Position numbers and translations under genes: made by a program. From an uncultured Flavobacteriales bacterium (GTDB lineage Bacteria; Bacteroidota; Bacteroidia; Flavobacteriales_D; Crocinitomicaceae): a DNA stretch of 64,000 nt. Shown one piece after another: positions 9,989 through 56,708 of the stretch. Within the stretch, counting starts at the first letter, position 1. The number at the start of each line of letters is the position of its first letter. Where the stretch lies: assembly GCA_943789205.1 (NCBI GenBank), contig CALSTG010000001.1, positions 1,044,435-1,108,434 of the forward strand. The letters run 5' to 3'. The notes beneath the pieces were generated by a model. That model had not been told where the DNA came from and did no database searches. It worked only from the letters and a program-made list of their open reading frames with translations.

Positions 9989-9989
9989 T

Positions 9990-10646: not shown

Positions 10647-10650
10647 ATTC

Positions 10651-12977: not shown

Positions 12978-14439
12978 AAGTGTCCTGCTGTTTTTATTAC
13001 TTAATCTAAGCCTCAAGCTCTTTAGCCAATCTGATGTGGGTTATCTTAACGGTGCATTTATAAGCGCAGGGCCTCAAAATAATTCCTTACAAGACAGCAC
13101 TACGCACTCTCAAAAAAGTTATGCGCGAAGTGATTTACGTCCAGCTATACGGCTTCGGAATACATCTCTAGGATATGATCTATTCAAAAAACAAAAAACC
13201 AATCTCGTTCCTATTGTGAATTTTGGAGGTCAATATAACTATGGCCTTCAGCACAGAAATGGATTGGGTTTTCTTTTTGAATCTAGGCCTGTAAAAAATA
13301 GCTATCTACGTATCGGGGGCCTCTTTGATATCTCAAATTCAACTATTCTAAATCCAGGAAGTATCAATCTCTCTAAACAAGAATCAGGACAGCAGTTCTG
13401 GTTTTTACCAATGGCGCGTTTGGCATACACACCAAATGAGATATTCTCTTTTCATTTGGGTTATGACAAAAACTTTATTGGAGCTGGAAGGCGGTCGTTA
13501 TTTTTAAGTGATTATGGAAAACCCATGCCTTTTGGACAAATTAGAGCACAGTTTTGGCATATGGAATACAGCGTAAATTATCAGTTTCTATCTGAAAACT
13601 ATGAAGGGCAAAGACAGTCAAAATTTGTAACAAGTCACCACCTCAGCTGGGATCTTTTACCTTGGTTGAACTTAGGCATTTTTGAAGCGGTGGTTTTTCA
13701 ACCCAAAGACACCTTACTCAATCGAGGCTATGATGTAGAATATCTTAACCCTTTTGTGTTTTATCGCCCACAGGAATATTCAATGGGGTCTTCTGATAAT
13801 GTTATTATAGGTTTATCCCTAAAGGCGTCATTAAAAAACACAACGGTTTATTCGCAAGTTGTTCTCGATGAGTTCTTACTATCGGAGTTACGTGCAAGGA
13901 GTGGCTGGTGGGCTAATAAGTTTGGTCTGCAATTAGGTATCAAAGGCAAAATATCTGACAACCTCAATTATCGGGTTGAAGGTAACCTGGTTCGCCCTTA
14001 TACTTTTTCACATTTAACTCCCTTACAGGTGTATGGGCATAGGGGGGCTGCACTGGCACATCCTTATGGTAGTAATTTTGCAGAAGTTCTTTCAGAATTG
14101 AACTGGCGAAAAAAAATGAATGCAAAATTGCGATTTAAATTTTTCGCTTCGTTCGGAATAATTGGAAGAGATTTCGATGGAATGAATTACGGATCAGACA
14201 TATATGAAAGCTATATTAATCGACCGAATGATTACGGAAACTTCATTGGACAAGGGCAAACACAATCCTTTTTCATTACATCTACCCGAATCTCATATCC
14301 TATGCTAAAAGAAGGCAGAATACATGCCTTTGCGGAATTTCAAACACAATTCTTAAAATCTGATGACTTTAAAGAGCTTAACCTATTGCCTATGATCGGG
14401 GTTCGGTCGTATTTATGGAACGATTATAGAAACTATTGA
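12967..14439 (+). CDS. Capsule assembly Wzi family outer-membrane protein, second paralogue
   Basis: This 490-residue exported protein has the same plan as its upstream neighbour: signal peptide (about 1-20, ending LFSQ), barrel-like alternation, a [20 protein letters not shown] patch near residue 170 and [18 protein letters not shown] near residue 360. Both end with a Phe/Tyr-containing C terminus (DYRNY) as outer-membrane barrels do. The 11-base overlap with the first gene suggests translational coupling and perhaps a paired function. The two proteins are clearly diverged paralogues, so the duplication is old. Confidence 0.77.
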
Positions 14440-14440
14440 T

Positions 14441-14656
14441 ATGATTGGTGAACAAAAAAACAACCCCCTGCACGGCGTTAAGCTTGCTGATATATTAGAG
14501 GCTTTAGTAAACGAATATGGTTGGGAGGAACTTGGTTACCGCATAGATATTCGGTGCTTTAACTATGACCCGTCCATCAAGTCCAGCTTAAAGTTTTTAA
14601 GGCGCACACCGTGGGCTCGGCAAAAAGTAGAACGCTTATATTTAAAAACGTTTTAG
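14441..14656 (+). CDS. VF530-family small DNA-binding protein
   Basis: This 71-residue protein matches the VF530/DUF2132 family pattern: [17 protein letters not shown] at the start, YGWEELG in the centre and [16 protein letters not shown] near the end. A family member from Vibrio fischeri has a solved structure and is described as a double-stranded-DNA-binding fold; no cellular role is established as far as I know. It starts one base after the Wzi-like gene stops, so it is probably in the same transcript. Confidence 0.85.
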
Positions 14657-14658
14657 CA

Positions 14659-15342
14659 ATGCGAAGAAAGAAATTCAAAAAGTCTAAATTCTTTACTGGG
14701 GCCCTTATTATGTGTCTTTTTGGTGGGTTTTATTTGTTCTCTTCAAAACCTGAAGCTGTAAAAAAAGTGCTAAAAAAAACCATTAATTACACCAAGCTTA
14801 AGGTTTCAGGGTCATACAGCTCGCGGCTAAAAGACAAGATGTCCGCTTATATTAGTACCGTTGAACGCACAGGAATTACGCCTTGCCGAAATGAAGAAGA
14901 TTTAAGTTCCCGGAGAAATTTATACAAACTTAAATCAGGTACTTACTACTCTATCGATCACCTAGATTACAGCCATGCTTACCTATCAAAAAAAGGTAAA
15001 GCGCTGCTGGAGGCTATCGAAACTGATTTCGGAGAGAAACTTTCGACCACAGATTTACACGATTCTAGATTTATTGTTACCTCACTTACAAGAACGAAGG
15101 AGAACGTAAGACGTTTGAGAAAAAACAATGGCAACGCAAGCGATAAAAGCGCACACATGTACGGGGGGTGTTTTGATATAACCTATGCGCGCTTTGAGAA
15201 CGACAGCAGAAGATTGAACTCTAATGATATTTATCGTTTAAAAGAGACCTTAGCACAGGTCATCTTTGAATTGAAAGAAAAGAAAAAGTGCTGGGCAATC
15301 ACTGAAAAAAGACAGCCTTGCTTTCATGTCGTAGCGCGATAA
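14659..15342 (+). CDS. DUF5715-like exported protein with peptidase M15-like motif
   Basis: The 227-residue product starts MRRKKFKKS, followed by one membrane helix or uncleaved signal (about 10-27). The C-terminal half carries the run SAHMYGGCFDI, which resembles the metal-binding SxHxxGxAxDI box of M15/Hedgehog-type DD-peptidases; here the residue before Asp is Phe and a Cys follows the Gly pair. An arginine-rich stretch (TRTKENVRRLRKNN) precedes it, as in related proteins annotated DUF5715. I chose the ATG at 14659; a longer frame from 14611 overlaps the previous gene without a signal-like start. A role in peptidoglycan trimming is inference. Confidence 0.65.
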   Translation: MRRKKFKKSKFFTGALIMCLFGGFYLFSSKPEAVKKVLKKTINYTKLKVSGSYSSRLKDKMSAYISTVERTGITPCRNEEDLSSRRNLYKLKSGTYYSIDHLDYSHAYLSKKGKALLEAIETDFGEKLSTTDLHDSRFIVTSLTRTKENVRRLRKNNGNASDKSAHMYGGCFDITYARFENDSRRLNSNDIYRLKETLAQVIFELKEKKKCWAITEKRQPCFHVVAR

Positions 15343-15386
15343 AGTTTCGGCTTTTTATTTAGGTACAAGAACGGAATGTATCTGAA

Positions 15387-16025
15387 TCATTCTGTAAAAA
15401 TCAAATCAATATAAGGGACTGCATAATTCAGCAAAGACCCACCTCCCGATGGGGTCGCTTGGTAAAAGTTTGCACTTGTTATTGTCATTGTACCTTCTGT
15501 GTACGGAAAACTCATTTCACCTTTACGCGCAACTCTTCCAATAAGGTTAATAAACTGCCCGTTAGCATTGTCCAACAAGAGGGTTCTTCTTAAAGTATAG
15601 GTCACTCCTGACTGTAAATCAATCATTGATACTACAGGGGCAGCAAATGGCGAATCAATCGTTGATGTTGGTGTTACGAAAGAGGTTTCAGATGAAGAAA
15701 AATTGTGATTACCATCATAAATAGTTGTGCCGGTTGCACTGTCAATTATTTCTATCAAATAAAGCGCCGACGATATTGCGGGTTGACTTTGGTAACCAAT
15801 CTCACAGACTTCTTTATCTTCTAGAAGCACAAACGTATATTCATGAATTTCTGTATCGAAGAAGACTTCATCCGTGTGTTCATTCAAAATCATATTTTGA
15901 AAAATTGATTGAAATGAAGAAGAAGAATGATCACATGAACTTTTGACCTCCTGTTTTCGACAGGAAAGACCTATTATTAGAATGCTAAGAAGCCAAATGA
16001 AATTATTTAAACGATTTTGCTTCAT
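15387..16025 (-). CDS. Putative lipoprotein of unknown function
   Basis: I do not recognise this 212-residue protein. It starts MKQNRLNNF, then a hydrophobic stretch (about 9-20) ending in the lipobox-like IGLSC, so it is probably a lipoprotein with Cys22 as the first mature residue. The rest looks like an all-beta domain with many Ser/Thr residues and no catalytic motif that I can see. It is on the opposite strand from its neighbours and divergent from the metallophosphoesterase gene, with an 86-base spacer for both promoters. Confidence 0.6.
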   Translation of the reverse strand: MKQNRLNNFIWLLSILIIGLSCRKQEVKSSCDHSSSSFQSIFQNMILNEHTDEVFFDTEIHEYTFVLLEDKEVCEIGYQSQPAISSALYLIEIIDSATGTTIYDGNHNFSSSETSFVTPTSTIDSPFAAPVVSMIDLQSGVTYTLRRTLLLDNANGQFINLIGRVARKGEMSFPYTEGTMTITSANFYQATPSGGGSLLNYAVPYIDLIFTE

Positions 16026-16111
16026 GCATATTTAAACGACAGACAAGCCCTTTTATTGTCTATTACTGATGGAGGATTATCGAAGTTAAAGGTCTTATAA
16101 TTATTTCACTA

Positions 16112-18514
16112 ATGCGTGACAATTACGTATCTTGTTTAAAAAATGTGATGCCCAAACTGGTCTTTTCCTTATTTAATGTGTTCTTTTTCGGAGCCTCTTT
16201 TTGTTTCAGTCAAATGTTACGCGTCGGCCCCTATCTTCAAAATGCAAGCCCTACTACAATAACTGTTATGTGGGAGACAAGTAGTATTGATGAAAGTATT
16301 GTCGAATGGGGAAACACTTCTTCCTTCGGAAATACCGCTTTGGGAACATTTGTTTCTGGAAATGGCTTGTCAAAAGTACATACGGTTAAAATAACGGGGC
16401 TGACTCCTGATACTCGTTATTACTATAGAATTCACACAGATGCAGTTGTAGGTCAAACTTATGACTTTATTAGCCCTCCCCTTCCTGAAAGTGAAAAAAG
16501 CTTCAATCTTATTTCTATGAGTGATATGCAACAAGATGGGGCGCATCCTGAAGTTTTTTCTGATATCGTAAATAATGATCTCATTCCTTTCGTCAACGAC
16601 CGTTATGGTAATAATAACGACCTCGCAAATGATATCGCATATGTTTTTATCCCAGGAGACCTTGTAACAACTGGGGGGAATTATCCATCTTGGAAAAGTA
16701 CATTTTTCGATCCCGCACAGACCCTTTTTAACCATGTGCCTGTATACCCCGTAGCGGGCAATCATGAACAAAACTCGGAGAATTACTTTAGATATTTCAA
16801 TTTACCAGAAAATGGAACAAACAACAATGATTACCTGGAGCATTGGTATTATACTGATTACTCAAATGTGAGGCTTGTTGGTCTAGAAACAAATAATGGA
16901 TACCGCATCCAAGAACAGCTCGATTGGTTACAAGGTGTTCTAGATGATGCTTGTGCAAACGAAAACATAGACTTTGTTTTTGCACAACTTCATCACCCGC
17001 ACAAATCAGAATTATGGATTGCTGGAAACACAGATTATACGGGTCAAATCATTGAAATTCTAGAATCTTTCTCAACAAACTGCGGTAAACCTAGTGTCCA
17101 TTTTTTTGGACATACACACGGCTATTCGAGAGGTCAAAGTAGAGACCACCAACATTTAATGATAAATGTTGCCTCTTCTGGGGGGGCAATTGATAACTGG
17201 GGAGAATACGCACAGCAAGATTATAAAGAATACTCTAAAAGCACGGATGATTATGGTTTTGTGCTCGTGGAAGTAGAGGCTGGAGTAAGCCCACAATTTC
17301 TTTTGTCCCGTGTGAGTCACGGTAGCTTTGAAAATGGCATAGTAAACGCAGAAATCAGAGACACCTTTAGGGTGATGAAAAACAACATTCCTCCTAACCA
17401 ACCAACAGGTCTATTCCCAAATGAGGGTGCTTCGCTCAACCCCGACTGCATCAAGTTTCTTGGTTCTAGTTTTAGCGATGAAAATGGTGGGTCTCACGGA
17501 GCGACACATTGGCAAATAGCGAGTGATAATAATTTTCAGAACCTTTTATATAACGAATGGTTTCAACATGAAAATTGGTATTTCGATGAAGATCTAGAAG
17601 CGGGGAATAGCCTTAATGAGAAAAAAATAACAGCACTAGCTGAAAATACTACTTACTTTTGGAGACTTCGTTACCGAGACAGAAACTTAGGTTGGAGCCC
17701 CTGGTCAACTGATATTTCGTTTAATACCACAAGCTCAATGCTTTCAGAAAACCTATTATTGAATGGTGGGGCTGAAAACGGCACAATGAATTGGACTGAG
17801 GTCTCTGGTTCTTTTGAATCTATTTTAAGTGGAGAATGCGCAGGTAATGATTCTCATTCCGGGGCCAGTTTATTTGCAGTTGGTGGCGTTTGTGAGCCGA
17901 ATGCCTATGGAGAAGGGTATCAAGATATTTCATTGACGGACTTTACTTCGAGTATTGATAATGATTCTGCGGCAGTCAGTTTTGGAGGCTACCTTAGTGA
18001 TTACGCTGGTTCTGATATCCCAGAGCTCAAACTTGTTTTCTTTGATGGCGCAGGAAATTTAATTTCAGAATCCGAAAGCTACTCAAACCAAACACCAAGT
18101 TGGACTTATATTCAGAATTCAATTCCTATCCCTAATGGCAGTCGAACTGTTCGTATGGTTTTAATAGGCACTAGAAATGCTGGGACTGATAATGACTCTT
18201 ACTTCGATGATTTATTTATTCGGGTACAAAACGGCTTATTTGATTGTGAAGAGCAAACTTTAAGTGTCGGTAGTTTAAATAACACCTCTTTACTTGAGGT
18301 TTATCCTAATCCATCGACAGGTATTATTTCCTTTAATACAGACGAACAGCTGAAAGGTGTTTCCTATATCATTTTCAATTCAAAAGGAGCTGAAGTTTTC
18401 CAAGGACATTTTATGGATAGTGTTGAAAATGTAAATCTTTCATCGATCGGAAAAGGTGTCTATGTTGTAACTGTTCCTGGATTTGCCGTTAACAAACGAT
18501 TTGTAATTCATTAA
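16112..18514 (+). CDS. Secreted purple-acid-phosphatase-like metallophosphoesterase with T9SS sorting domain
   Basis: The 800-residue protein has a signal peptide (residues about 13-33; the ATG at 16148 may be the true start). Next comes a fibronectin-III-like N-domain of purple acid phosphatases (LRVGPYLQNASPTTITVMWE). The metallophosphoesterase core has SMSDMQ, FIPGDLV, AGNHE and HFFGHTHGYSRG providing the metal ligands. After that come a second Fn3-like region (about 430-545), a carbohydrate-binding-like jelly-roll region (about 545-710) and a C-terminal T9SS type A sorting domain starting near LLEVYPNPSTG. It is therefore probably displayed or released outside the cell to hydrolyse phosphomonoesters. 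Its exact substrate is unknown. Confidence 0.85.
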   Translation: MRDNYVSCLKNVMPKLVFSLFNVFFFGASFCFSQMLRVGPYLQNASPTTITVMWETSSIDESIVEWGNTSSFGNTALGTFVSGNGLSKVHTVKITGLTPDTRYYYRIHTDAVVGQTYDFISPPLPESEKSFNLISMSDMQQDGAHPEVFSDIVNNDLIPFVNDRYGNNNDLANDIAYVFIPGDLVTTGGNYPSWKSTFFDPAQTLFNHVPVYPVAGNHEQNSENYFRYFNLPENGTNNNDYLEHWYYTDYSNVRLVGLETNNGYRIQEQLDWLQGVLDDACANENIDFVFAQLHHPHKSELWIAGNTDYTGQIIEILESFSTNCGKPSVHFFGHTHGYSRGQSRDHQHLMINVASSGGAIDNWGEYAQQDYKEYSKSTDDYGFVLVEVEAGVSPQFLLSRVSHGSFENGIVNAEIRDTFRVMKNNIPPNQPTGLFPNEGASLNPDCIKFLGSSFSDENGGSHGATHWQIASDNNFQNLLYNEWFQHENWYFDEDLEAGNSLNEKKITALAENTTYFWRLRYRDRNLGWSPWSTDISFNTTSSMLSENLLLNGGAENGTMNWTEVSGSFESILSGECAGNDSHSGASLFAVGGVCEPNAYGEGYQDISLTDFTSSIDNDSAAVSFGGYLSDYAGSDIPELKLVFFDGAGNLISESESYSNQTPSWTYIQNSIPIPNGSRTVRMVLIGTRNAGTDNDSYFDDLFIRVQNGLFDCEEQTLSVGSLNNTSLLEVYPNPSTGIISFNTDEQLKGVSYIIFNSKGAEVFQGHFMDSVENVNLSSIGKGVYVVTVPGFAVNKRFVIH

Positions 18515-23065: not shown

Positions 23066-25058
23066 ATGAAAAGCTTGAAACTTACCGTAACATTCTTCTT
23101 TTTTTTGCTCGCATTTTTTAATTTTTCACAATCCAATACTCTAGTTGTTTTCTCGCAAGACCCAACACCATTTTACATAGTTCTTGACGGCGTCAAAAAA
23201 AATGAAGTTGCAGAAACGAGGGTTGTCGTTCCTGGTATCAGACAAACAAATAGTAATGTTCAAATCTATTTCAAGGATGAAAGCATAGCACCAATTACCA
23301 AAAATATTTGGTGGGAAGAGGGACATGAAAATGACGAGGTTACCTATCGTATTGTACCCGTAAAAAGGGGCTACAAGCTGCGTTTTTTCAGTACGGTGCC
23401 AAATAAAGTAACACCAACCCCACCGCCTACCACTGCAGTAATTGCAGGGAATACAGTTACGGCTCCTGCATCTTTAGTAGGATGTGTGAATCCTGTTCAG
23501 GACATAGGAAGCATTATGGGTGCCATTGACGATGAAAGTTTTGATGAAGGGAAAATGACTGTCGCAAAGCAAGCGACATCAAAAAAGTGTTTGACGGTAA
23601 ATCAAATCAAACAAATCATGGATGAATTTAGCTTCAGCAAAAACAAACTTGACTTCGCTAAATATGGCTACACACGATGCTACAATCCAGATGATTATTA
23701 TCAAGTGAATGCTGCTTTTGATTTTGACTCGGAAAAAAAAGAGCTCAACGAATACATAACGTCAACTCCACTAGCCACAGCTCCAGTGGCAGTTAGCACC
23801 TCAGGTAAACACAAAATGTACAATCGACAACAACAACTGTTGTAACTGAAACCACAACAATAAGCAACAACGGCGATGCAAATTCAATTAACGCGAATAC
23901 AAATAATACGGTGACAAATAGCAATGCGAATGTAAATGGCAATATGAATACAGGTGTTAACATGAATGTAAATTCAGGTACAGACAACACGAGTATGAAT
24001 AATGCGGTGACAAACAGCAATACGAACGTAAATGGTAATATAAATACTGGTATTAACATGAACGTAAATTCAGGTATAGATATGAACGCCGGTGGAACTG
24101 TAAACAATTCGCCTGATATGGTTGGTGGCTCTATAAGTATGAACATCAATATGAATGATGGGGCAAACATGAATACGGGTAATGAAAACATGAATATGAA
24201 CGTCAATGTAAATGATGGAAACATGAATGCCGTAAATCCTCCTAATAACGGAAACGTGTCAATTAATATGAATGTCAATGAGGGCTATACCAATACGGCG
24301 GTTCCTGTAAATGGACAAGTGAATGTCAGTATGAATGACGGAAGCGAACATGAATACGGGTAATGAAAACTATGAATATGAACGTCAATGTAAATGATGG
24401 AAACATGAATGCCGTAAATCCTCCTAATAATGGAAATATGTCAATTAATATGAATGTCAATGAAGGCCAAACCAATATGGCCGTTCCTATTAATGGGCAG
24501 GTGAACGTTAATATGAATATGAATGATGCAGGCTTCAACAATGGTATGAATCAAGCAAACAACAATATGGAGGTGAACATGAATGTCAATGAATCGGTTA
24601 CACCGAATACAACAAACAACGCTGCAGCATTCAACAATAACACGAATACCACCAATATAGACGTTAACGAAACCGTAACGACAACCGTAACGACAACTAC
24701 AACCACAATTAACGAGACACCTATTGCTGCCGCTCCTGTTGTTGCCGCACCTGTTTCTTCAGGAGGGTGTGTAAACCCGGTTCAGGATATGGGAAGTATT
24801 ATGGCTGCTATTGATGATGAAAGCTTTGACGAGGGGAAAATAATTGTCGCTAAGCAGGCAACATCAAAAAAGTGTTTAACTGTAGATCAAATCAAACAAA
24901 TAATGGATGAATTTAGCTTTAGCAAAAACAAGCTGAACTTCGCCAAATACGCCTATAAAAGATGCTACAATCCAGATGATTATTATCAAGTAAATGGTGC
25001 TTTTGACTTTAGCTCGGACAAAGAGGAAATGAACGAGTTTATCAACGACCAGAATTAA
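23066..25058 (+). pseudogene. Exported double-DUF4476 protein with Asn/Met-rich linker, broken by three frameshifts
   Basis: Read across three small indels, this is one exported protein of about 660 residues. It has a signal peptide (about 1-21), a beta-rich N-domain, a first DUF4476 domain (CVNPVQDIGSIM, near base 23480), a long linker dominated by NMNVN-type repeats, and a second, nearly identical DUF4476 domain (near base 24766). The frame is lost at 23807-23809 (an A-run), near 24341-24346 and at about 24371. Three ORFs result: 23066-23845, 23911-24363 and 24363-25058. Adjacent frames join without loss of similarity. The breaks are either recent mutations or sequencing errors in a repetitive region. 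DUF4476 has no established function. Confidence 0.75.
24167..24528 (+). repeat. Two-copy tandem repeat of about 180 bp inside the Asn/Met-rich linker
   Basis: Unit 1 starts at 24167 and unit 2 at 24348; the 181-base period equals 60 codons plus the one inserted base that breaks the frame. Each unit encodes NMNTGNENMNMNVNVN, then an AVNPPNNGN stretch and a VPxNGQVNV stretch. Two of the gene's three frameshifts sit at the start of unit 2. Confidence 0.75.
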
Positions 25059-25080: not shown

Positions 25081-25105
25081 GACCTCATCAAAGAATGATG
25101 AGGTC
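25081..25105 (-). terminator. Terminator hairpin at the end of the ssb pair
   Basis: GACCTCATCA and TGATGAGGTC form a perfect 10-bp stem with a 5-base loop. On the minus strand the stem is followed by a T-rich tract (TTTTATTTT), as in a Rho-independent terminator. The stop codon of the shorter ssb lies inside the stem. It can also insulate the DUF4476 gene on the plus strand. Confidence 0.75.
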
Positions 25106-25399
25106 ATTGATCTCTATCTCCGAGAACATTTTGCGGCTACCCCGATCGTGGTAAAAACGACTCACGATTCGACCTTCAATGGCTACTGAGGTGCCTTTTG
25201 TACCATATTCATTTAGGACCTGAACCCATCTTCCCCAAGCCGATAGCGTATGCCAATTTTTGCGTGTTTTTTTAGCACCTTGAACATCTAAATAGCTTTC
25301 TTGTGTAGTTAAGGTAAACTTCACCTGGCGCCTGCCATTAGACAGCAGGTGAAGCTCTGGTTTAGAATGAATCTCACCAATAAGGTGTACCAAGTTCAT
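25088..25399 (-). CDS. Small single-stranded DNA-binding protein, second of pair
   Basis: The 103-residue protein is a single OB-fold SSB: MNLVHLIGEI at the start, the FTLTTQESYLD strand near residue 28, WHTLSAWGRWVQV near residue 49 and VAIEGRIVSRFYHD near residue 72. It ends directly after the fold and lacks the acidic C-terminal tail by which housekeeping SSB recruits repair proteins. It overlaps the upstream ssb by one base (TAATG). It lies upstream of and divergent from the integrase, so a role in single-stranded DNA handling during cassette movement or DNA uptake is possible (inference). Confidence 0.85.
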   Translation of the reverse strand: MNLVHLIGEIHSKPELHLLSNGRRQVKFTLTTQESYLDVQGAKKTRKNWHTLSAWGRWVQVLNEYGTKGTSVAIEGRIVSRFYHDRGSRKMFSEIEINDLIIL

Positions 25400-25755
25400 T
25401 ACTCAGCTACCTCACCTCTGTATGGAGCAGACAACACCAAAAACTCATTTGCCTCAACGACGGTTCTATTCTTGCGCTCGCCGGCTTTGGTTTCATAGGT
25501 TTGGTGTAAAAGTCGGCCTTCCACCATGACCTTGCTGCCCTTCTCAAGTGCATCTCGCATCTTGTCGCCCAATGGACCCCAAGCATTCACGTTGTGCCAC
25601 TGTACCTGTTCATCCCAGTCGCCATTCTTTTGTTTATAGCGCTGGTGGGTAGCCATGCTGAATTTTGTAATTGACTTTCCTGAGTCAAAGGAGACCGTTT
25701 CCGGATCTCTTCCTAATCGCCCGATTAAACTGACTTTGTTTCGTAATGCATTCAT
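25399..25755 (-). CDS. ssb: Single-stranded DNA-binding protein, first of pair
   Basis: This 118-residue SSB has the canonical order: MNALRNKVSLIGRLGRDPE at the N terminus, FSMATHQRYKQKNGDW with the DNA-contacting aromatic residues, WHNVNAWGPLGD near residue 54 and KVMVEGRLLHQTYE near residue 74. Its C terminus (RGEVAE) is short and not the usual DDDIPF-type tail. It is probably not the housekeeping SSB, but I cannot see the rest of the genome. It is transcribed away from the integrase; the 169 bases between them must hold both promoters. Confidence 0.88.
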   Translation of the reverse strand: MNALRNKVSLIGRLGRDPETVSFDSGKSITKFSMATHQRYKQKNGDWDEQVQWHNVNAWGPLGDKMRDALEKGSKVMVEGRLLHQTYETKAGERKNRTVVEANEFLVLSAPYRGEVAE

Positions 25756-25924
25756 AATGTAAAAATTTAAAAGTTTAAAAAAATTGCTTGTCGCTAAATT
25801 CGACAGGACAAAATTGAGGGCAATGAAAAGCCATAAACGGTTCCTTGTCGTTTAGTGTCGATATTTAGTCGTTTGTAATTGATTAAGGTGCGAATACTTG
25901 ATCTAATTTCTAGACGTTTGCACC

Positions 25925-26758
25925 ATGAACAACCTCGAACAAGTCATTCAAAAAATGCGCATCAAGCGCTACAGTACAAATACAATTAACACCTATGTGT
26001 CATGCCTAAAGCAATTCTTTAACTATCTCAAGCAAGCAGACACAAAAGAACTCGGCAAAGAAGAGGTCATGTCCTATCTAGAACATTTAGTAAAAAAGGG
26101 CTATTCCAAGAGCGCACAAAACCAGCATATCAATGCGATAAAGTTCTATTATGAAAAACACCTTGGACACAAACGTACTTTCTATTTTATCGAACGGCCT
26201 TTTAAAGATCAAAGGATTCCTGTGGTGCTCAGCAAAGCAGAAACCCAAAGACTATTTCAGGCTGTTGACAACCTAAAGCACAGAACAATTCTATATACCA
26301 TCTATGGTTGCGGGCTACGCATTTCAGAGCTGATCAACCTGCAAATGAGTGATGTAGATCGGGAACGCATGTGCCTATGGGTTAGAAAAGGAAAGGGAAA
26401 TAAAGACCGTCAAATACCCATTTCGCCAAAGTTACTCGCGCTACTGGAGCGCTACTATAAATCCTATAGGCCCCAAGTATTCCTTATCAATGGACAACAT
26501 GGCTTAAAATACTCAGCAGGGAGCGTACAAAAGATCGTTAAAGCCGCCTGTAAAAAAGCGTCTATTCAAAAGCATGTCACTCCACATACACTTCGACATA
26601 GTTTTGCTACACATCTTTTAGAAAACGGAACGGACTTGCGATGCATTCAAAGTATATTAGGGCATAACGATATCAAAACCACACAGATTTATACCCACGT
26701 CACATCAGCGCACTTGAATAGCATCAAAAATCCATTTGATGACATGGATCTCAGCTAA
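25925..26758 (+). CDS. XerC/D-type tyrosine recombinase adjoining the cassette array
   Basis: The 277-residue enzyme has an N-terminal SAM-like core-binding domain (about 1-85) and a complete catalytic domain: R132 (GCGLRISEL), the lysine hairpin KGKGNKDR (155-162), H221 and R224 (PHTLRHSFATHLL), H247 (LGHNDI) and nucleophile Y256 (QIYTHV). It ends in SIKNPFDDMDLS. There is no IntI-specific insertion between the lysine hairpin and the HxxR helix: only a short loop is present where IntI proteins have an extra helix. It points toward the cassettes, as in so-called inverse integrons. A near-match to the -7 box (GACGTTTG) ends four bases before its ATG. It is the obvious candidate for moving the cassettes; this is inference from position. 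Confidence 0.92.
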   Translation: MNNLEQVIQKMRIKRYSTNTINTYVSCLKQFFNYLKQADTKELGKEEVMSYLEHLVKKGYSKSAQNQHINAIKFYYEKHLGHKRTFYFIERPFKDQRIPVVLSKAETQRLFQAVDNLKHRTILYTIYGCGLRISELINLQMSDVDRERMCLWVRKGKGNKDRQIPISPKLLALLERYYKSYRPQVFLINGQHGLKYSAGSVQKIVKAACKKASIQKHVTPHTLRHSFATHLLENGTDLRCIQSILGHNDIKTTQIYTHVTSAHLNSIKNPFDDMDLS

Positions 26759-26770
26759 AAAATATAAGCG

Positions 26771-26793
26771 AAATAAACGTATTACGTTTATTT
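26771..26793. repeat. Perfect palindrome after the integrase gene
   Basis: The arms AAATAAACGTA and TACGTTTATTT surround a single T. The same palindrome with central A recurs inside both attI-like sites (26939-26959 and 55120-55140). Thirteen bases after the integrase stop, it could be a terminator, but the shared sequence suggests a protein-binding site, perhaps for the recombinase. Confidence 0.7.
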
Positions 26794-26915
26794 CTACATC
26801 CCAATATCCGACTTCACCACTACTCTGAAGAATACAACCGGTATTTATAAAAAACTCATATTCAGTAGTTTACATATTCAATATCTTTCCTTATTAGGGT
26901 CTCAAGCATTCTATT

Positions 26916-26923
26916 TATATTTG
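26916..26923 (+). promoter_or_regulatory. Candidate cassette promoter (Pc-like) of array 1
   Basis: TATATTTG matches TAnnTTTG and lies 11 bases upstream of the attI-like site, pointing into the cassettes. At array 2 a near-match (TATCTTTA, 55093-55100) sits in a similar place, which supports a shared design. Confidence 0.4.
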
Positions 26924-26934
26924 AGTATTAAACT

Positions 26935-26969
26935 CAGAAATAAACGTAATACGTTTATTCCCTCGTTAT
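26935..26969 (+). other. attI-like recombination site of array 1
   Basis: This 35-bp segment is repeated exactly at 55116-55150 and nowhere else that I found. It comprises CAG, the palindrome with arms AATAAACGTA and TACGTTTATT, the spacer CCCTC and then GTTAT. The inferred crossover is between G26965 and T26966, where the first cassette begins. In integrons the primary site attI has one GTTRRRY crossover box next to integrase-binding sequence; this fits, but the palindromic part is unlike the attI sites I know. Confidence 0.7.
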
Positions 26970-26974
26970 AAACA

Positions 26975-28315
26975 ATGAACATAACCAGAGACTTCATATA
27001 CAATATAATCTTCATAGCCATAATCTCGATTTACGGAATAGAAGTATGTCCTCATGTCTCAAAACTTGGGCTTACTTTAACTGGCTTAAGCTTTTTATTA
27101 GTCGTATTACCTTTATTCATTGCTCGAATACTGATTTCTAAAAGAAACAATAATAACTACAGACAGTTCATAATTGACTTCAGCTACTTTGCTATTGTAG
27201 GGACTTTCGTAGGACTTTTCAACTACATTTATAGAGATTACCCAATAGAGAGTGCATTAAAGATAATTGTTGGGGCGCTTTCTTTGGGCACTCTGAACGC
27301 AATTATATACTCTTTAGAAGCTCCTTTTCTAAAAACAATAAACAGGTTTTCTTTCACCAGCAGAATATCATTGTTTTTGTCGTTGATTTTAATCTTAATT
27401 GGTGGAGTTTGGATTCTTTTAGTAAAGCAAAATCTAAACTTATTTGATGAAGTTCAAAACGGATCCATGATAGATTTGGTCACGAGCATAACAATTGAAA
27501 CCTTATTTGTTATCACCATTCTAATCTCTTACTTGTTTCGAATAATCTATTTGTATAAAAAGAATTTGCAAGCTGGCATAAAGGGCCAAATCGCAAGTCT
27601 TAAAGAAGTTCGAAGAGATAATTTAAACGTAACTATTTCTAGATTCTCAAATGACGAATTCTCAATTATTGGCGATGAGGTAAACGACATGATATCTCGC
27701 CTTAAGTACGGTCAAAAAATAAAAGATGGTTTTGAAAAAGTAACAGGTAAAAATGTTGGCACGAATCTTATTGAACGAATTTCAGAACGTGATTTCTCAT
27801 CAGAACAAAAAGAAATGACCGTCCTATTTACAGACATAAAAGGTTTCACCACTTTGTGCGAAAACTCTGAACCTAAACAATTTGTGATTGATTTGAACCA
27901 GCATTTTGAATTAATGGTGAGCATAATTCGTGAACTTGATGGAAATGTAAACAAATTTATAGGAGATGCAATTCTAGTATATTTTGAAGGAAATAACTCT
28001 TGCACTCGAGCTACTGTAGCTGCTCATAAAATGATTGAAAAATCGAATTTCAATATCGGGGTTGGCATAAGTCATGGTGAATTAATGGCAGGGCTAATCG
28101 GTTGTGAAGAACGACTCGAGTATTCTATCATAGGAAGCGTTGTGAACAAGGCGGCTAGATTAGAATCAGCAACCAGAACCTTAGATTCTGATCTTGTTAT
28201 TTGTGATTCCACTGCAATGAAGCTAATGGCCAAGGAGTTTAAAACTTTTGAGAATACTAAAATACGTTTGAAAGGATTTGAAGAGAATGAAACCGTATAT
28301 TTTAAAAGTTTATAA
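26975..28315 (+). CDS. Membrane class III adenylate/guanylate cyclase (cassette 1)
   Basis: The 446-residue protein has about six membrane helices (residues 8-190), a HAMP-like linker (about 190-245) and a class III cyclase domain (about 275-446). Catalytic residues are present: metal-binding D287 (FTDIKGFT) and D331 (KFIGDAIL), base-selecting K327, and N391/R395 (NKAARLES) for transition-state binding. It should make cAMP (or cGMP) from the nucleotide triphosphate on the cytoplasmic side; Lys327 favours adenine. The gene starts nine bases after the cassette boundary, with hardly any leader, and its stop codon is part of the attC-like R'' box. An apparently identical copy is cassette 4 (30018-31358). 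Confidence 0.9.
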   Translation: MNITRDFIYNIIFIAIISIYGIEVCPHVSKLGLTLTGLSFLLVVLPLFIARILISKRNNNNYRQFIIDFSYFAIVGTFVGLFNYIYRDYPIESALKIIVGALSLGTLNAIIYSLEAPFLKTINRFSFTSRISLFLSLILILIGGVWILLVKQNLNLFDEVQNGSMIDLVTSITIETLFVITILISYLFRIIYLYKKNLQAGIKGQIASLKEVRRDNLNVTISRFSNDEFSIIGDEVNDMISRLKYGQKIKDGFEKVTGKNVGTNLIERISERDFSSEQKEMTVLFTDIKGFTTLCENSEPKQFVIDLNQHFELMVSIIRELDGNVNKFIGDAILVYFEGNNSCTRATVAAHKMIEKSNFNIGVGISHGELMAGLIGCEERLEYSIIGSVVNKAARLESATRTLDSDLVICDSTAMKLMAKEFKTFENTKIRLKGFEENETVYFKSL

Positions 28316-28361
28316 CAAAACCTAAACTGCATTGAAACCCAGTTTAGCTAAAACGTTATAG
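28308..28361 (+). other. attC-like site 1
   Basis: The R''-like box GTTTATAAC is the reverse complement of the left end of cassette 1 (GTTATAAAC). It is followed by a stem of CTAAACTG and CAGTTTAG around a short loop and ends in AAACG|TTATAG, where cassette 2 begins. The cyclase stop codon lies inside the R'' box. Confidence 0.82.
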
Positions 28362-28451
28362 TACATTGAAATTCAGTGGAGACCAGAGACCACAAAAAAA
28401 ACGGGGCGACACCGAAAAGCCAAATGAGTAGAAAAATTAAACTTAAATAAA

Positions 28452-28805
28452 ATGAATAATAACTTTCCTACACCCGAAGATTTTGTTTCACAAAAAACAG
28501 AAGAAAATTTAAGGGAATTGTTAAATGAAGTGAATTCTAAGGCTATGTTTGATATTAAATCAGATATGCATATAGCATATCTAAATCAAACACTTGAAAA
28601 TTTTATAATTAACTTAAAAGAAACATACAGTAATCAAAAACAAGTTTATGAAATGAGTGGCAACACTTTTGTCTCAAGATTACAATTTTATGGATTTATT
28701 AACAGAGTTGTTGACAATATATATCCAGAATTTAATCCAAACTGGAATAGTCAAAAAAAGTATTCAAAATATCGTGACCCAGACAATGAGCTTTTAATGT
28801 ATTAG
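28452..28805 (+). CDS. Small hypothetical protein (cassette 2)
   Basis: I do not recognise this 117-residue, probably cytoplasmic protein. It is rich in Asn, Glu and Lys, predicted mainly helical, with no signal peptide or membrane segment; the central part SDMHIAYLNQTLENFIINLK looks amphipathic. It is the only gene of a 512-bp cassette and has about 95 bases of leader after the cassette boundary, longer than in cassette 1. A toxin or antitoxin role would be typical of cassettes, but nothing in the sequence shows it. Confidence 0.65.
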   Translation: MNNNFPTPEDFVSQKTEENLRELLNEVNSKAMFDIKSDMHIAYLNQTLENFIINLKETYSNQKQVYEMSGNTFVSRLQFYGFINRVVDNIYPEFNPNWNSQKKYSKYRDPDNELLMY

Positions 28806-28819
28806 TTATTAATAAAATT

Positions 28820-28875
28820 TACTATAACAAAACCTAAACTGCATTATAACGCAGTTTAGCCAGAACGTTGGCGGT
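28820..28875 (+). other. attC-like site 2
   Basis: The box TACTATAAC is the reverse complement of the left end of cassette 2 (GTTATAGTA). The stem is CTAAACTGC/GCAGTTTAG with an 8-base loop, and the site ends GAACG|TTGGCGG. The loop and right arm differ from site 1, while the stem is conserved. Confidence 0.82.
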
Positions 28876-28935
28876 AATTAAATTAAACCTTAGATGATTT
28901 TAAAAGTCTAAGAAGAAAATTTAAAAGAGTAAATT

Positions 28936-29928
28936 ATGATGAAACAGATTTTTACAACTTTACTAATTATGGTTTCTTTGATATCATGTGATAAAGATGA
29001 TAATAACATAATTACACCGGAAACCTCAGCTCCAACAGTGAAGTTAAATACTACCTATGAAGTAACTATTACGGAAGACATCACGTACGCTGAAGGACTT
29101 AGTCATGATAGTTGGAACAGTGCCAATACCTCTGTAGTTCCTTTATTAATGGACTCTTACATTCCAGACAATGATTTACAAAATCGCCCTTTACTAATGT
29201 TAATTCATGGTGGAGCATTTTATGGTGGTTCAAAACAACAGGAAGCATTAGTGGATATGGCAAATTATTACGCTTCTAGAGGCTTTGTTGTATTTTCAAT
29301 TGACTACAGGCTTAACGCCCATAAGGGAACGATTCCTCAAGAATGGATTGATGCCACTTCTGATGTTGCCCCTGCAAATCTCGACCAACTTTATGCAATG
29401 TACCCTGCTCACAGAGATGCTAAAGCTGCTTTAAGGTGGATTATAGCAAATGCCGATAATTTCCACATAAATAAAGATTATATCACTGTAGGTGGTGGTT
29501 CTGCAGGAGCAATTACATCTATTGGGCTTGGTGTATCAGAATTAGGTGATTATAAAGATGAAATAAGTTTAAGTGAAGATAATACCCTATCAACAACCAA
29601 TCTTTCTCAAACCTATGAAGTACAAACAATTTTAGACTTTTGGGGCTCCAATGTATCTGTAGAAATACTGGAGTTAATTTATGGACACCAAAGATTTGAC
29701 TCAAATGACCCAGCATTGTTTATAGCTCATGGCACAGAAGACCCTACCGTACCTTTTAGTAGTGCTGAAGATTTAAAAACTATATGTGAAACAAATGAAA
29801 TCGATTTCGTTTATTATCCATTAGAAGGCAGAGGTCATGGTCCCTGGGGTGCTACTGTGAATGGAAAAAGCTTATCAGATTTATCTTTTGATTTTATAGT
29901 GGACAACCAAGATTTGAATGTCGAATAA
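28936..29928 (+). CDS. Lipoprotein alpha/beta-hydrolase, carboxylesterase type (cassette 3)
   Basis: The 330-residue product has a lipoprotein signal (about 1-17, lipobox SLISC). It then has an esterase/lipase fold with oxyanion motif HGGAFYGG near residue 91, nucleophile motif GGGSAGAI near residue 188 and the catalytic His region GRGHGPWG near residue 298. It therefore hydrolyses esters at the cell envelope; substrate unknown. Two ATGs are adjacent (28936 and 28939); either could be used. It is carried on a cassette whose terminal site differs from the others, so it may have come from another array. Confidence 0.87.
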   Translation: MMKQIFTTLLIMVSLISCDKDDNNIITPETSAPTVKLNTTYEVTITEDITYAEGLSHDSWNSANTSVVPLLMDSYIPDNDLQNRPLLMLIHGGAFYGGSKQQEALVDMANYYASRGFVVFSIDYRLNAHKGTIPQEWIDATSDVAPANLDQLYAMYPAHRDAKAALRWIIANADNFHINKDYITVGGGSAGAITSIGLGVSELGDYKDEISLSEDNTLSTTNLSQTYEVQTILDFWGSNVSVEILELIYGHQRFDSNDPALFIAHGTEDPTVPFSSAEDLKTICETNEIDFVYYPLEGRGHGPWGATVNGKSLSDLSFDFIVDNQDLNVE

Positions 29929-29932
29929 AAAC

Positions 29933-30016
29933 TACCGCCAACACGCGGTAAATAAAGCATAGGCTTGCCGCAGGCGCAACACAAGCCAACGCTTCATACC
30001 GCCATCCGTTATAAAC
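29933..30016 (+). other. attC-like site 3 (long type)
   Basis: The box TACCGCCAAC is the reverse complement of the left end of cassette 3 (GTTGGCGGTA), a 10-base match. The site is about 30 bases longer than its neighbours, with nested stem segments GCGGT/ACCGC, AAGC/GCTT and GGCTTG/CAAGCC, mismatches between them, and the end CATCCG|TTATAAAC. This interrupted-stem layout resembles long integron attC sites. Confidence 0.82.
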
Positions 30017-30017
30017 A

Positions 30018-31358
30018 ATGAACATAACCAGAGACTTCATATACAATATAATCTTCATAGCCATAATCTCGATTTACGGAATAGAAGTATGTCCTCATGT
30101 CTCAAAACTTGGGCTTACTTTAACTGGCTTAAGCTTTTTATTAGTCGTATTACCTTTATTCATTGCTCGAATACTGATTTCTAAAAGAAACAATAATAAC
30201 TACAGACAGTTCATAATTGACTTCAGCTACTTTGCTATTGTAGGGACTTTCGTAGGACTTTTCAACTACATTTATAGAGATTACCCAATAGAGAGTGCAT
30301 TAAAGATAATTGTTGGGGCGCTTTCTTTGGGCACTCTGAACGCAATTATATACTCTTTAGAAGCTCCTTTTCTAAAAACAATAAACAGGTTTTCTTTCAC
30401 CAGCAGAATATCATTGTTTTTGTCGTTGATTTTAATCTTAATTGGTGGAGTTTGGATTCTTTTAGTAAAGCAAAATCTAAACTTATTTGATGAAGTTCAA
30501 AACGGATCCATGATAGATTTGGTCACGAGCATAACAATTGAAACCTTATTTGTTATCACCATTCTAATCTCTTACTTGTTTCGAATAATCTATTTGTATA
30601 AAAAGAATTTGCAAGCTGGCATAAAGGGCCAAATCGCAAGTCTTAAAGAAGTTCGAAGAGATAATTTAAACGTAACTATTTCTAGATTCTCAAATGACGA
30701 ATTCTCAATTATTGGCGATGAGGTAAACGACATGATATCTCGCCTTAAGTACGGTCAAAAAATAAAAGATGGTTTTGAAAAAGTAACAGGTAAAAATGTT
30801 GGCACGAATCTTATTGAACGAATTTCAGAACGTGATTTCTCATCAGAACAAAAAGAAATGACCGTCCTATTTACAGACATAAAAGGTTTCACCACTTTGT
30901 GCGAAAACTCTGAACCTAAACAATTTGTGATTGATTTGAACCAGCATTTTGAATTAATGGTGAGCATAATTCGTGAACTTGATGGAAATGTAAACAAATT
31001 TATAGGAGATGCAATTCTAGTATATTTTGAAGGAAATAACTCTTGCACTCGAGCTACTGTAGCTGCTCATAAAATGATTGAAAAATCGAATTTCAATATC
31101 GGGGTTGGCATAAGTCATGGTGAATTAATGGCAGGGCTAATCGGTTGTGAAGAACGACTCGAGTATTCTATCATAGGAAGCGTTGTGAACAAGGCGGCTA
31201 GATTAGAATCAGCAACCAGAACCTTAGATTCTGATCTTGTTATTTGTGATTCCACTGCAATGAAGCTAATGGCCAAGGAGTTTAAAACTTTTGAGAATAC
31301 TAAAATACGTTTGAAAGGATTTGAAGAGAATGAAACCGTATATTTTAAAAGTTTATAA
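30018..31358 (+). CDS. Membrane class III adenylate/guanylate cyclase, second copy (cassette 4)
   Basis: The protein is identical over all 446 residues to the cassette 1 cyclase, and the DNA also appears identical from the cassette boundary (TT at 30009) to the G at 31398. Both cassettes are 1390 bp. Sequence outside the boundaries differs completely, so the repeat unit is exactly one cassette. Domain layout and catalytic residues are as in copy 1. Two intact copies could raise dosage, or show recent cassette excision and re-insertion; an assembly duplication is less likely because the flanks are distinct. Confidence 0.9.
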   Translation: MNITRDFIYNIIFIAIISIYGIEVCPHVSKLGLTLTGLSFLLVVLPLFIARILISKRNNNNYRQFIIDFSYFAIVGTFVGLFNYIYRDYPIESALKIIVGALSLGTLNAIIYSLEAPFLKTINRFSFTSRISLFLSLILILIGGVWILLVKQNLNLFDEVQNGSMIDLVTSITIETLFVITILISYLFRIIYLYKKNLQAGIKGQIASLKEVRRDNLNVTISRFSNDEFSIIGDEVNDMISRLKYGQKIKDGFEKVTGKNVGTNLIERISERDFSSEQKEMTVLFTDIKGFTTLCENSEPKQFVIDLNQHFELMVSIIRELDGNVNKFIGDAILVYFEGNNSCTRATVAAHKMIEKSNFNIGVGISHGELMAGLIGCEERLEYSIIGSVVNKAARLESATRTLDSDLVICDSTAMKLMAKEFKTFENTKIRLKGFEENETVYFKSL

Positions 31359-31404
31359 CAAAACCTAAACTGCATTGAAACCCAGTTTAGCTAAAACGTT
31401 GGCA
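31351..31404 (+). other. attC-like site 4
   Basis: Same as site 1 (box GTTTATAAC, stem CTAAACTG/CAGTTTAG) up to AAACG, then joins TTGGCATC of cassette 5. The change of sequence exactly after G marks the crossover point. Confidence 0.82.
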
Positions 31405-31427
31405 TCAATAAACAAAATGAACATTAA

Positions 31428-31958
31428 ATGATAAGTAAGGTGTTATTAGTGGTATTGCTAACGACAATAAGTCTCATGTCGTTTTCTCAGAAGCAAGAAG
31501 AAATTATCGATACAAGACCATTGAATAATATTAATATTAACCTCTTAGGTGATGCTTCAAGAGTTTCGATAAATTACGAGAGACAATTTTTAGTCAGTAC
31601 AACTTTTAATTTAACAAGTAAATTAGGATTAGGATATAATCAAGAATATCAGTTGTGCCTTGGCGGAGGATGCGGTCCACCAGATAAATACTTCACCCTG
31701 CCACATCACATCACAGGTAATTTAGGAAAAGGGCGTCATTTCTTTGAATTTGGATTTGGAGGCACATTCCTGACAGGAAATAAAACCTTGTTCTATTATA
31801 TTTACCCAACAATTGGATACAGAATTTCACCGCTCAAGTCAAAAAAAATTAATTTCAGAATATTTGGGCAAGTACCGCTGTATAAATTTGACAGATTGGA
31901 TCAATTAAATGATTTCATATTTTTACCCTTTGGTTTAAGTATGGGCATGAGTTTTTAA
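31428..31958 (+). CDS. Small exported protein, probable outer-membrane beta-barrel (cassette 5)
   Basis: I cannot assign a family. The 176-residue product has a signal peptide (about 1-21, ending LMSFSQ) and alternating aromatic/hydrophobic strands such as HFFEFGFGGTFL and TLFYYIYPTIGYRI, ending in GLSMGMSF with a C-terminal Phe, as outer-membrane barrels do. A CLGGGCGPP segment near residue 72 may be a disulfide loop. It is the last cassette of array 1. Confidence 0.7.
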   Translation: MISKVLLVVLLTTISLMSFSQKQEEIIDTRPLNNININLLGDASRVSINYERQFLVSTTFNLTSKLGLGYNQEYQLCLGGGCGPPDKYFTLPHHITGNLGKGRHFFEFGFGGTFLTGNKTLFYYIYPTIGYRISPLKSKKINFRIFGQVPLYKFDRLDQLNDFIFLPFGLSMGMSF

Positions 31959-31993
31959 CTAATTATAAAATAGAATTACAAATATAAAACTGC

Positions 31994-32045
31994 TGCCGAC
32001 AAAACCTAAACTGCATTGAAACCCAGTTTAGCTAAAACGTTAAAA
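31994..32045 (+). other. attC-like site 5, end of array 1
   Basis: The box TGCCGAC pairs with the left end of cassette 5 (GTTGGCA) at 6 of 7 positions; the mismatch would be a G-T pair when folded. The stem is CTAAACTG/CAGTTTAG and the end is AAACG|TTAAAACC. No matching downstream site exists, so this is the array's right edge. Confidence 0.78.
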
Positions 32046-55115: not shown

Positions 55116-55150
55116 CAGAAATAAACGTAATACGTTTATTCCCTCGTTAT
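55116..55150 (+). other. Second attI-like site
   Basis: Exact 35-bp copy of 26935-26969: CAG, the palindrome with arms AATAAACGTA/TACGTTTATT (55120-55140), CCCTC, then GTTAT. The cassette boundary is between G55146 and T55147. No recombinase gene lies nearby; a promoter-like TATCTTTA sits at 55093-55100. Confidence 0.75.
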
Positions 55151-55196
55151 GTGTAACATTTAGACAGCATAAAATGTATTATACCAAAGAACTCTA

Positions 55197-56018
55197 TTGA
55201 AACAATTTTTATTTATTCTCATATTAGGCATACCGTCTTTTTGTAATGCTCAAAACATCAATCATGAAGTGAGCATCACCCCCATTAGCCTTTACACGGG
55301 AGCTGCCACCATTTTTTATACCCATGGTCTAAAATATAAAATGGCATACAAAAAGAATGCAGTTTCTCTTAGTAGCCATGGCACACTTTTTAATAAACTG
55401 GATGGTAGAAAAAAGCGACAAAATCCTATTGATCGTGCACACATTCCCTTTTTAAATGCAAGCGCAATATCAGTGAGTCGTAGGATTATTGATTTTGATA
55501 AATATCCCGAGAAGCTTAATCAATTGTATATTAACGGAGGATATCATTTTTTTCAATTTAGTGCGCCCCGTGATGAATATTGGTATGTAGATTCAATTGA
55601 CAATGGTGGCGTGAAAATATTGAGCGGTTTTAGAACACATTCCCTTACTATTGGAGTGAGCTGGTTAAACACCAAAACAATTCCTTCAAAAAATAAAAAG
55701 TCATTACAAGCAAAGAATAAATTTACATACGAATATATACACGGTTTGGTAATGAATTTAACTGGATATAATCGATTCGATTCATATTCGGAGAGTACTG
55801 AAATCCCTAACATTTACAACTTTAAGCGGAGTGGTTTTCAATTCAGCTACTTATACGCAAGAGAGCTTTCAAAACACATTGGTCTTTTTACTGAATTTGA
55901 GGTTTTGTATGTCCCTTTCATAGATTATTTCTATAATACAGAAATAGTTGTGCCAAGAGGAGGTGAAAGGATAAAACCATGGTTTGCAGGAATTAAAATC
56001 GGAATTAACCTTTTCTAG
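55197..56018 (+). CDS. Exported outer-membrane-like protein (array 2, cassette A)
   Basis: The 273-residue product has a signal peptide (about 1-18, ending CNAQ) and a barrel-like mature part with many Tyr/Phe strands (FQFSYLYARELSKHIGLF near residue 215) and the C-terminal FAGIKIGINLF ending in Phe. I do not recognise a family. Start is TTG at 55197; no ATG precedes the signal peptide in frame. It is the only gene of the cassette, 50 bases after the boundary. Confidence 0.7.
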   Translation: MKQFLFILILGIPSFCNAQNINHEVSITPISLYTGAATIFYTHGLKYKMAYKKNAVSLSSHGTLFNKLDGRKKRQNPIDRAHIPFLNASAISVSRRIIDFDKYPEKLNQLYINGGYHFFQFSAPRDEYWYVDSIDNGGVKILSGFRTHSLTIGVSWLNTKTIPSKNKKSLQAKNKFTYEYIHGLVMNLTGYNRFDSYSESTEIPNIYNFKRSGFQFSYLYARELSKHIGLFTEFEVLYVPFIDYFYNTEIVVPRGGERIKPWFAGIKIGINLF

Positions 56019-56023
56019 ATACC

Positions 56024-56078
56024 CATAACACAGTCTAAACTAAATTGAATAGCTTAGTTTAGACGCAACGTTAGCTGC
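56024..56078 (+). other. attC-like site A
   Basis: The box CATAAC matches the left end of cassette A (GTTATG). The stem GTCTAAACTAA/TTAGTTTAGAC is 11 bp and perfect, and the site ends CAACG|TTAGCTGC. The stem keeps the CTAAACT core of the array 1 sites. Confidence 0.8.
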
Positions 56079-56162
56079 AAGGAAAAAAAAACGACTGAGT
56101 GATGTTTAAAACTTTGACTGACAATAACAGTTCACAAATAACAAAAAGATAAAAACAAAAGA

Positions 56163-56660
56163 ATGATAAAAATTAAAACCTCAATTTTGGCTGGAATAGC
56201 ATTCGGACTTCTACTCGGAACTTTTCTGGGATTTATGCATGGAATTAATGCTGCTATTATTATGGGGCCGATTTCAGGTCTTTTATTTGGAATTTTCATT
56301 CATTTGTTTGGAAATTCAAAAACTGTTAAACGTCAGACACAAATAGAAACCAAAGACGGAGAAAGCATAATTCACTCAGGAGGGGCAAATCACTTAAAGA
56401 ACAGTGAAGGTGTTGGCGGAAAACTTTACTTGTTGTCTGACAAACTTCAATTTAAATCTCACAGTTTTAACTTACAGAATCACGAACTTGTGATTTATAT
56501 AGACCAAATCAAAGACATAACTTTTTATAACAACCTTGGTATTGTTCCAAATGGACTTGCGGTTTCGTTGAAAGACGGTAGACAAGAGAAATTTGTTGTT
56601 AGTGGCAGACAACTCTGGAAAACTGAAATTGAGAAGCTAAGAGCAATTAAGAACAATTGA
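56163..56660 (+). CDS. Membrane-anchored GRAM/PH-like domain protein (array 2, cassette B)
   Basis: The 165-residue product has two N-terminal membrane helices (about 7-25 and 30-48), then a cytoplasmic GRAM-like domain: ANHLKNSEGVGGKLYLLSDKLQFK near residue 76 and ITFYNNLGIVPNGLAVSLKDG near residue 120. GRAM domains bind membranes or proteins; no catalytic role is indicated. It lies about 90 bases after the cassette left end and ends 26 bases before the degenerate attC-like site B. Confidence 0.72.
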   Translation: MIKIKTSILAGIAFGLLLGTFLGFMHGINAAIIMGPISGLLFGIFIHLFGNSKTVKRQTQIETKDGESIIHSGGANHLKNSEGVGGKLYLLSDKLQFKSHSFNLQNHELVIYIDQIKDITFYNNLGIVPNGLAVSLKDGRQEKFVVSGRQLWKTEIEKLRAIKNN

Positions 56661-56686
56661 AAACAAAATTTAAAACAGAATTGCCA

Positions 56687-56708
56687 GCAGCTAACATTGT
56701 GTAGCATT
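56687..56708 (+). other. Degenerate attC-like site B
   Basis: The box GCAGCTAAC is a perfect reverse complement of the left end of cassette B. Only ATTGT separates it from GTAGCATT, the damaged left end of cassette C (GTTAGCATT expected from site C). The stem is gone, so this site should not recombine. Confidence 0.65.

Follow-up and report, generated by a model that had tools for sequence, protein, structure and literature searches.

The question raised by this locus is whether a row of genes that follows a tyrosine recombinase gene, each gene closed by a hairpin, is an integron-like cassette array, and which enzyme would move its cassettes. The window, i.e. the whole stretch of DNA that was analyzed, comprises 64,000 nucleotides from an uncultured Flavobacteriales bacterium. 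Array 1 (25925–32039) consists of the recombinase gene rec1, then an attI-like site, then five cassettes, with the coordinates given in Table 1. The junctions are of the form G|TT, with the G at 26965, 28355, 28867, 30008, 31398, and 32039, and each cassette spans G|TT to G|TT with a hairpin at its end. The recombinase, the attI-like site and the five hairpin-bearing cassettes had been described in a sequence-only reading of this DNA, and all were found again at the same positions. That reading had also held that the left end of every cassette is the reverse complement of the box of its own terminal site. This is the case for cassettes 1–4, where the 3' box pairs with the own left end over 8/8 nt, and is partly so for cassette 5, which matches at 6/8 (CTGCCGAC compared with ATGCCAAC) and consequently falls outside the strict chain. 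The count of five also stands, with the qualification that cassettes 1 and 4 are one unit, 100% identical over 1,394 bp with the identity stopping at the junctions on either side, so that only four of the five cassettes differ. Of the five hairpins in the array, that of cassette 3 is the longest and the weakest (stem score 6). The 176-aa ORF of cassette 5 gave no match in a Pfam comparison. Cassette 2 has a DUF805 RNA (RF03081, 82.5 bits) in its leader; the DNA of the RNA stretch finds matches in many genomes of the order, and the RNA was absent at the gathering score from the 11 other loci scanned.

Table 1. Features of the window around the two arrays.
Feature	Coordinates	Strand	Remarks
Single-strand-binding protein (SSB) gene	25088..25399	-	Divergent from recombinase; PF00436, 73 bits
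Second SSB gene	25399..25755	-	PF00436, 99.7 bits
rec1, tyrosine recombinase, 277 aa	25925..26758	+	Predicted cassette integrase without the IntI insertion; PF00589, NF040815, TIGR02249 scores
Extra 21-bp palindrome copy	26772..26792		Without a G|TT junction
attI-like site of array 1	26935..26967	+	Palindrome AATAAACGTAATACGTTTATT then CCCTCG|TT; ends at G26965|TT
Cassette 1	26966..28355	+	MASE10 + guanylate cyclase-type domain protein, ORF 26975–28315; 100% copy of cassette 4
attC-like site of cassette 1	28307..28364	+	
Cassette 2	28356..28867	+	117-aa ORF 28452–28805; DUF805 RNA at 28371–28438
attC-like site of cassette 2	28819..28876	+	
Cassette 3	28868..30008	+	BD-FAE esterase-like ORF 28936–29928; 89% copy beside rec2 on contig C3
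attC-like site of cassette 3	29933..30017	+	Long type
Cassette 4	30009..31398	+	Identical to cassette 1
attC-like site of cassette 4	31350..31407	+	
Cassette 5	31399..32039	+	176-aa ORF 31428–31958
attC-like site of cassette 5	31991..32045	+	Box matches own left end 6/8
attI-like site of array 2	55116..55148	+	Same 35 bases as the array 1 site (55116–55150)
Array 2, cassette A	55147..56070	+	ORF 55197–56018; box 56022–56029, 7/8 with own left end
Array 2, cassette B	56071..56695	+	ORF 56163–56660; box 56688–56695, 8/8 with own left end; hairpin looks truncated

The array is very probably integron-like and worked by the neighboring rec1, which would join the folded, single-stranded attC hairpin to the double-stranded attI site at G|TT. 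That the folded single strand is the substrate is suggested by the hairpin and by analogy with IntI, and a free circular cassette would restore its attC by the pairing of its two boxes. As read from the DNA, the system has unit cassettes with G|TT bounds, boxes that pair with their own ends, attI-like copies at six places, identical cassettes in unlinked arrays, and a single polarity. Some cassettes are present in more than one array of this genome, at unlinked places, as indicated by the 89% copy of cassette 3 and by a 2,970-bp cassette that is 100% identical between the array at C1:1993045 and the array of a second recombinase, rec2, on contig C3, with the identity ending at the junctions. 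From such identical copies with junction-exact ends, the cassettes appear to behave as units. At another locus, L009, the recombinase flank is the same as that of rec1 and the cassettes are different, as judged by eye; L009 and the G355 locus appear to be one genome and do not count as independent.

The recombinase passes the NF040815 model for XerA and integron integrases (236 bits, cut-off 220) and stays under the cut-off of the TIGR02249 IntI model (233 bits, cut-off 265), to which it aligns in two segments, of which the better one ends at residue 180. Residues Arg-132, His-221, Arg-224, His-247, and Tyr-256 (rec1 numbering), which we take to be the catalytic residues of tyrosine recombinases, are invariant across the 26 aligned sequences. 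The IntI insertion around patch III (I2), about 42 residues in length, is present in nine IntI proteins of the alignment and missing in 17 family members, and rec1 is without it. The spacing from the KDR to the RHS motif is 64 residues in rec1 and 64–69 in its family, apart from one row (L217) that gave 136, compared with 106 in the 11 IntI rows that yielded a value. The alignment, the spacing, and the TIGR02249 score thus agree with the earlier claim that the recombinase lacks the IntI-specific insertion. A search of the window genome with rec1 at 1e-3 returns only rec1, rec2 (51% identical to rec1), and two further recombinases, which type as XerD (over the cut-off) and XerC (best model, under the cut-off). 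A recombinase about 51% identical to rec1 is also encoded on Acinetobacter plasmids (matches H4–H28) and is called TnpF in one record.

Relatives of rec1 were found at 1e-55 in 43 of the 118 phylum genomes (53 places). Thirty loci were examined, namely 20 of the 53 places, chosen by hand and non-randomly, together with ten earlier loci, and 27 of these have 1.5 kb of downstream sequence. At least one strict cassette starts within 600 bp after the recombinase match in 16 of the 27 loci, one of which (L204) rests on an A/T-rich box, and two or more are present in nine, including one (L047, genome G115) with a stop codon within the recombinase gene. In the reversed upstream sequence of the 30 loci, used as control, the corresponding counts were 2/30 and 0/30. 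For five of the 27 (L201, L203, L204, L210, and L211) the genome also has a true IntI, and either enzyme could act. The G118 locus is scored as having no cassette because its first box fails the strict test, and seven cassettes there show box pairing by eye. The cassette-bearing loci include lineages distant from the window, e.g. Gelidibacter algens (L010). In 15 phylum genomes a true IntI and a rec1 relative are found together, so cassettes may be shared or exchanged between the two kinds of system. In another Bacteroidota order, plasmid p2 of Flammeovirga kamogawensis (L198) carries an array of tandem cassettes that are similar in size, about 455 bp each, and have the same kind of hairpin. 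At L050 (G074, 9793–18400) two cassette chains start 4.3 kb and 10 kb past the recombinase, and two tandem cassettes are alike in size, ends, and attC.

Instead of rec1, another enzyme could have placed the cassettes, either an IntI that was later lost or XerC/XerD, leaving rec1 as a bystander. The genome does encode XerD- and XerC-type recombinases, and a true IntI (TIGR02249 over the cut-off) is present in 39 of the 118 phylum genomes. However, this explanation is quite unlikely, as the window genome, which is 95% complete, has no TIGR02249 match over the cut-off, the first junction lies 46–111 bp past the recombinase match in 14 of the 16 cassette-bearing loci (196 and 457 bp in the others), and the identical cassettes point to recent activity.

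The window holds a second array, overlooked in the sequence-only reading, at about 55116–56695, with an attI-like site and two cassettes; no recombinase gene adjoins this site. Within 3 mismatches the attI-like 29-mer occurs at six places in the window genome, and its reversed control at none. Outside the window, two cassettes lie downstream of the copy at C1:1179364, the second box being short of one base, and two downstream of that at C1:1993045. The copy at C3:437 is followed by one cassette with a box of 8/8 by eye, the contig ending within the attC, and reading the sequence downstream of the copy at C1:388302 revealed no cassette. Across the order, the 29-mer is found with the same tolerance at 39 places in 21 of 399 genomes, again with none for the reversed control. 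The dispersed attI sites would be served in trans by rec1 or its paralogue rec2. Alternatively, the dispersed palindromes could be regulator or terminator sites of which only the recombinase-adjacent copy is used as attI, a reading that would account for the extra copy at 26772, which has no junction and whose minus strand scans as terminator-like. It is decidedly unlikely, since at most listed sites the conservation extends through CCCTCG|TT and then ends, and box-matched cassettes follow copies that are distant from the recombinase gene. The dispersed copies are probably attI sites. Upstream of several of these sites (window 55072–55110; L069 2254; L070) a sequence of about 29 bp, AATGGAAAAATAAAGATGTATCTTTAGCC, is present in whole or in part, and it also forms the attI region of rec2 (L044); it is possibly a cassette promoter or a second type of attI. 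The upstream sequence of about 29 bp that is common to some attI sites contains TATCTTTAG. A promoter scan of 26700–27000 found no sigma-70-type promoter, and a promoter within the shared upstream sequence is our guess, made with what we take to be the -7 motif of Bacteroidota promoters in mind.

The pairing between box and left end is far above chance. An exact 8-nt box for the own left end together with a hairpin follows 15 of the 29 attI-like sites that have at least 400 bp downstream (eight shorter sites being excluded), compared with 7/1,033 when left ends are swapped. No strict cassette was scored at the other 14, at least two of which (window 55146 and C3:437) have a cassette by eye. 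Decay, contig ends, a different attI, or lack of function may account for these 14 sites and for the 11 of 27 recombinases without a strict cassette. Covariation of the boxes is also seen in other arrays whose recombinase is of this kind, an outcome on which the sequence-only reading had staked its claim, and hairpins of very unlike sequence chain there in the same manner. Where a hairpin and an attI copy are found on one contig, the hairpin is without exception downstream and on the same strand (18/18); six more hairpins in the same genomes are on contigs without an attI match. The hairpin pattern is found in 59 of the 399 genomes of the order and the attI pattern in 21, the reversed patterns in none; the 49 genomes with the hairpin and without the attI pattern count against the reading favored here. 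It is highly improbable that the hairpins are no more than common repeats or terminators, with the genes stacked by homologous recombination via a shared sequence of about 40 bp. Many hairpins do have a common 28-mer core (59/399 genomes), and homology could copy cassettes too, but this reading leaves unexplained the pairing of each box with the left end of its own cassette, the box covariation in arrays with unlike hairpins, and the insertion of cassettes at attI, whose resemblance to the hairpins by eye hardly goes beyond CGTT.

The hairpins of the family differ from those of IntI integrons in their stems. A stem bulge was scored in seven of 48 distinct attC sites from 22 family loci compared with 27 of 29 in nine IntI arrays that also come from this phylum (Fisher, 3.7e-12), and a bulge within 8 pairs of the stem base in 4 compared with 27 sites (2.5e-14), these p-values being too small because the attC sites within a locus are related. 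Counted by locus, bulged sites are absent from 16 of the 22 family loci and present in all of the IntI loci. Both groups were scored by one purpose-written script; at L070, which contributes to the seven bulged family sites, it ended the site at a GTT beyond the true junction. Of 20 IntI regions, nine contained a chain of at least two and supplied the IntI arrays, each read on whichever strand gave the longer chain. In 17 of 22 attC sites the 3' spacer exceeds the 5' spacer by two nucleotides, and the strand may be chosen by the asymmetric spacers and the conserved loop instead of bulged bases. Hairpins without bulged bases would be workable, as a Vibrio attC from which the bulged bases were deleted still recombines, with a weaker choice of strand, according to the available text of Bouvier et al. 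(PMC2727003).

In trees with a XerC/D outgroup the rec1 family groups with IntI in one clade, supported at 97/88 in the first tree and 100/99 in the wider trees, and the XerC/XerD-type proteins of the window genome fall outside it. IntI alone is a clade (100/100) that excludes rec1. The sequence-only reading had left open a separate integron-like lineage or a convergent one; the separate lineage is favored, and convergence is disfavored by the common clade with IntI relative to the Xer and XerA rows (100/99). The wider tree nests IntI next to two insertion-less members (89/85), and constraining the rec1 family to a single group carries a cost of 1.24 log units (AU p 0.43), which does not separate an IntI beside the family from one inside it. 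The rec1 family is predicted to comprise integron integrases homologous to IntI, as its sister or ancestral lineage, and the window system likely belongs to an integron lineage that is separate and possibly older. Members that have arrays and lack the insertion lie on both sides of the deepest split, as would fit an integron function before I2, the support of the two sides being only 98/83 and 89/72. A loss of I2 in the rec1 family, as against a later gain in IntI, is possible. The wider proposal, which we consider tentative and a little short of probable, is that integrons predate the IntI insertion. A second, older kind in the Bacteroidota would combine an integrase that lacks the I2 helix with unbulged attC hairpins, and would in some genomes be distributed, with one or two integrases and many chromosomal attI sites; I2 and bulged bases would have been gained together in a later branch, the classical IntI integrons.

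With IntI integrons (class 1, the Vibrio superintegron, and archaeal ones) the window system has in common a tyrosine recombinase, attI, G|TT cassettes, R''/R' boxes, and one polarity. It differs in the missing insertion, the mostly unbulged attC stems, and the occurrence of attI at several places. The rec1 gene also points towards its cassettes, an orientation different from that of the integrase gene in the usual IntI layout. The separate XerD- and XerC-type proteins outside the clade set rec1 apart from the XerA, XerC, and XerD dimer resolvases. In the portions of the literature available, the insertion and the bulged attC bases are treated as hallmarks of integrons (PMC9668308, PMC8138268, PMC2727003). 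The "integron-like" simple tyrosine recombinases of Smyshlyaev et al. 2021 (PMC8138268) come close to the present family, as the insertion is not fully conserved there either and the subgroup has insertion-less members; the accessible text calls the insertion essential for integron function and names no cassette arrays for those members, whereas the rec1 family has arrays. The attG sites of Loot et al. 2024, as presented in the accessible part of PMC12901181, likewise take up cassettes away from the main attI, but they diverge from classical att sites and the copies in the window genome are near-identical to the main attI. An IntI search (PMC9024848) gives, in its available text, Salinibacter ruber M1 as the complete Bacteroidetes integron, beside cases in Chlorobi and Ignavibacteriae. 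In the literature searched, no earlier description of an insertion-less lineage of cassette integrases was found. For Riemerella anatipestifer, homology-independent uptake of aph(3')-IVb with an attC-like stem-loop downstream of the mobile gene has been reported, no enzyme being named in the accessible text (PMC13148043); like the window system, this case combines a Bacteroidota host with an attC-like fold, and the rec1 family is a candidate for the insertion.

A widespread lineage that follows the cassette logic of integrons and has neither hallmark would distinguish the requirements of integrons in general from the particular features acquired by IntI, and, if true, a separate and possibly older lineage would make the origin of gene-capturing machines testable. 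A Xer-like ancestor acquiring I2 is considered possible in the available text of Escudero et al. (PMC4792948), and the rec1 family would provide living proteins for testing this idea. Across a large phylum, IntI-based searches would overlook rec1-type integrases. A cassette system with scattered attI copies would have another layout, with several small platforms instead of a single long array.

The two SSB proteins encoded next to rec1 could conceivably govern the folding of the hairpins, a guess from gene order. A similar SSB pair adjoins rec2 and the L009 copy, and none was seen at the G118 locus, in each case by eye. Adjoining the SSB pair of the window, 24363–25058 encodes a DUF4476 protein with low-complexity N/M-rich repeats, and a similar ORF adjoins rec2.
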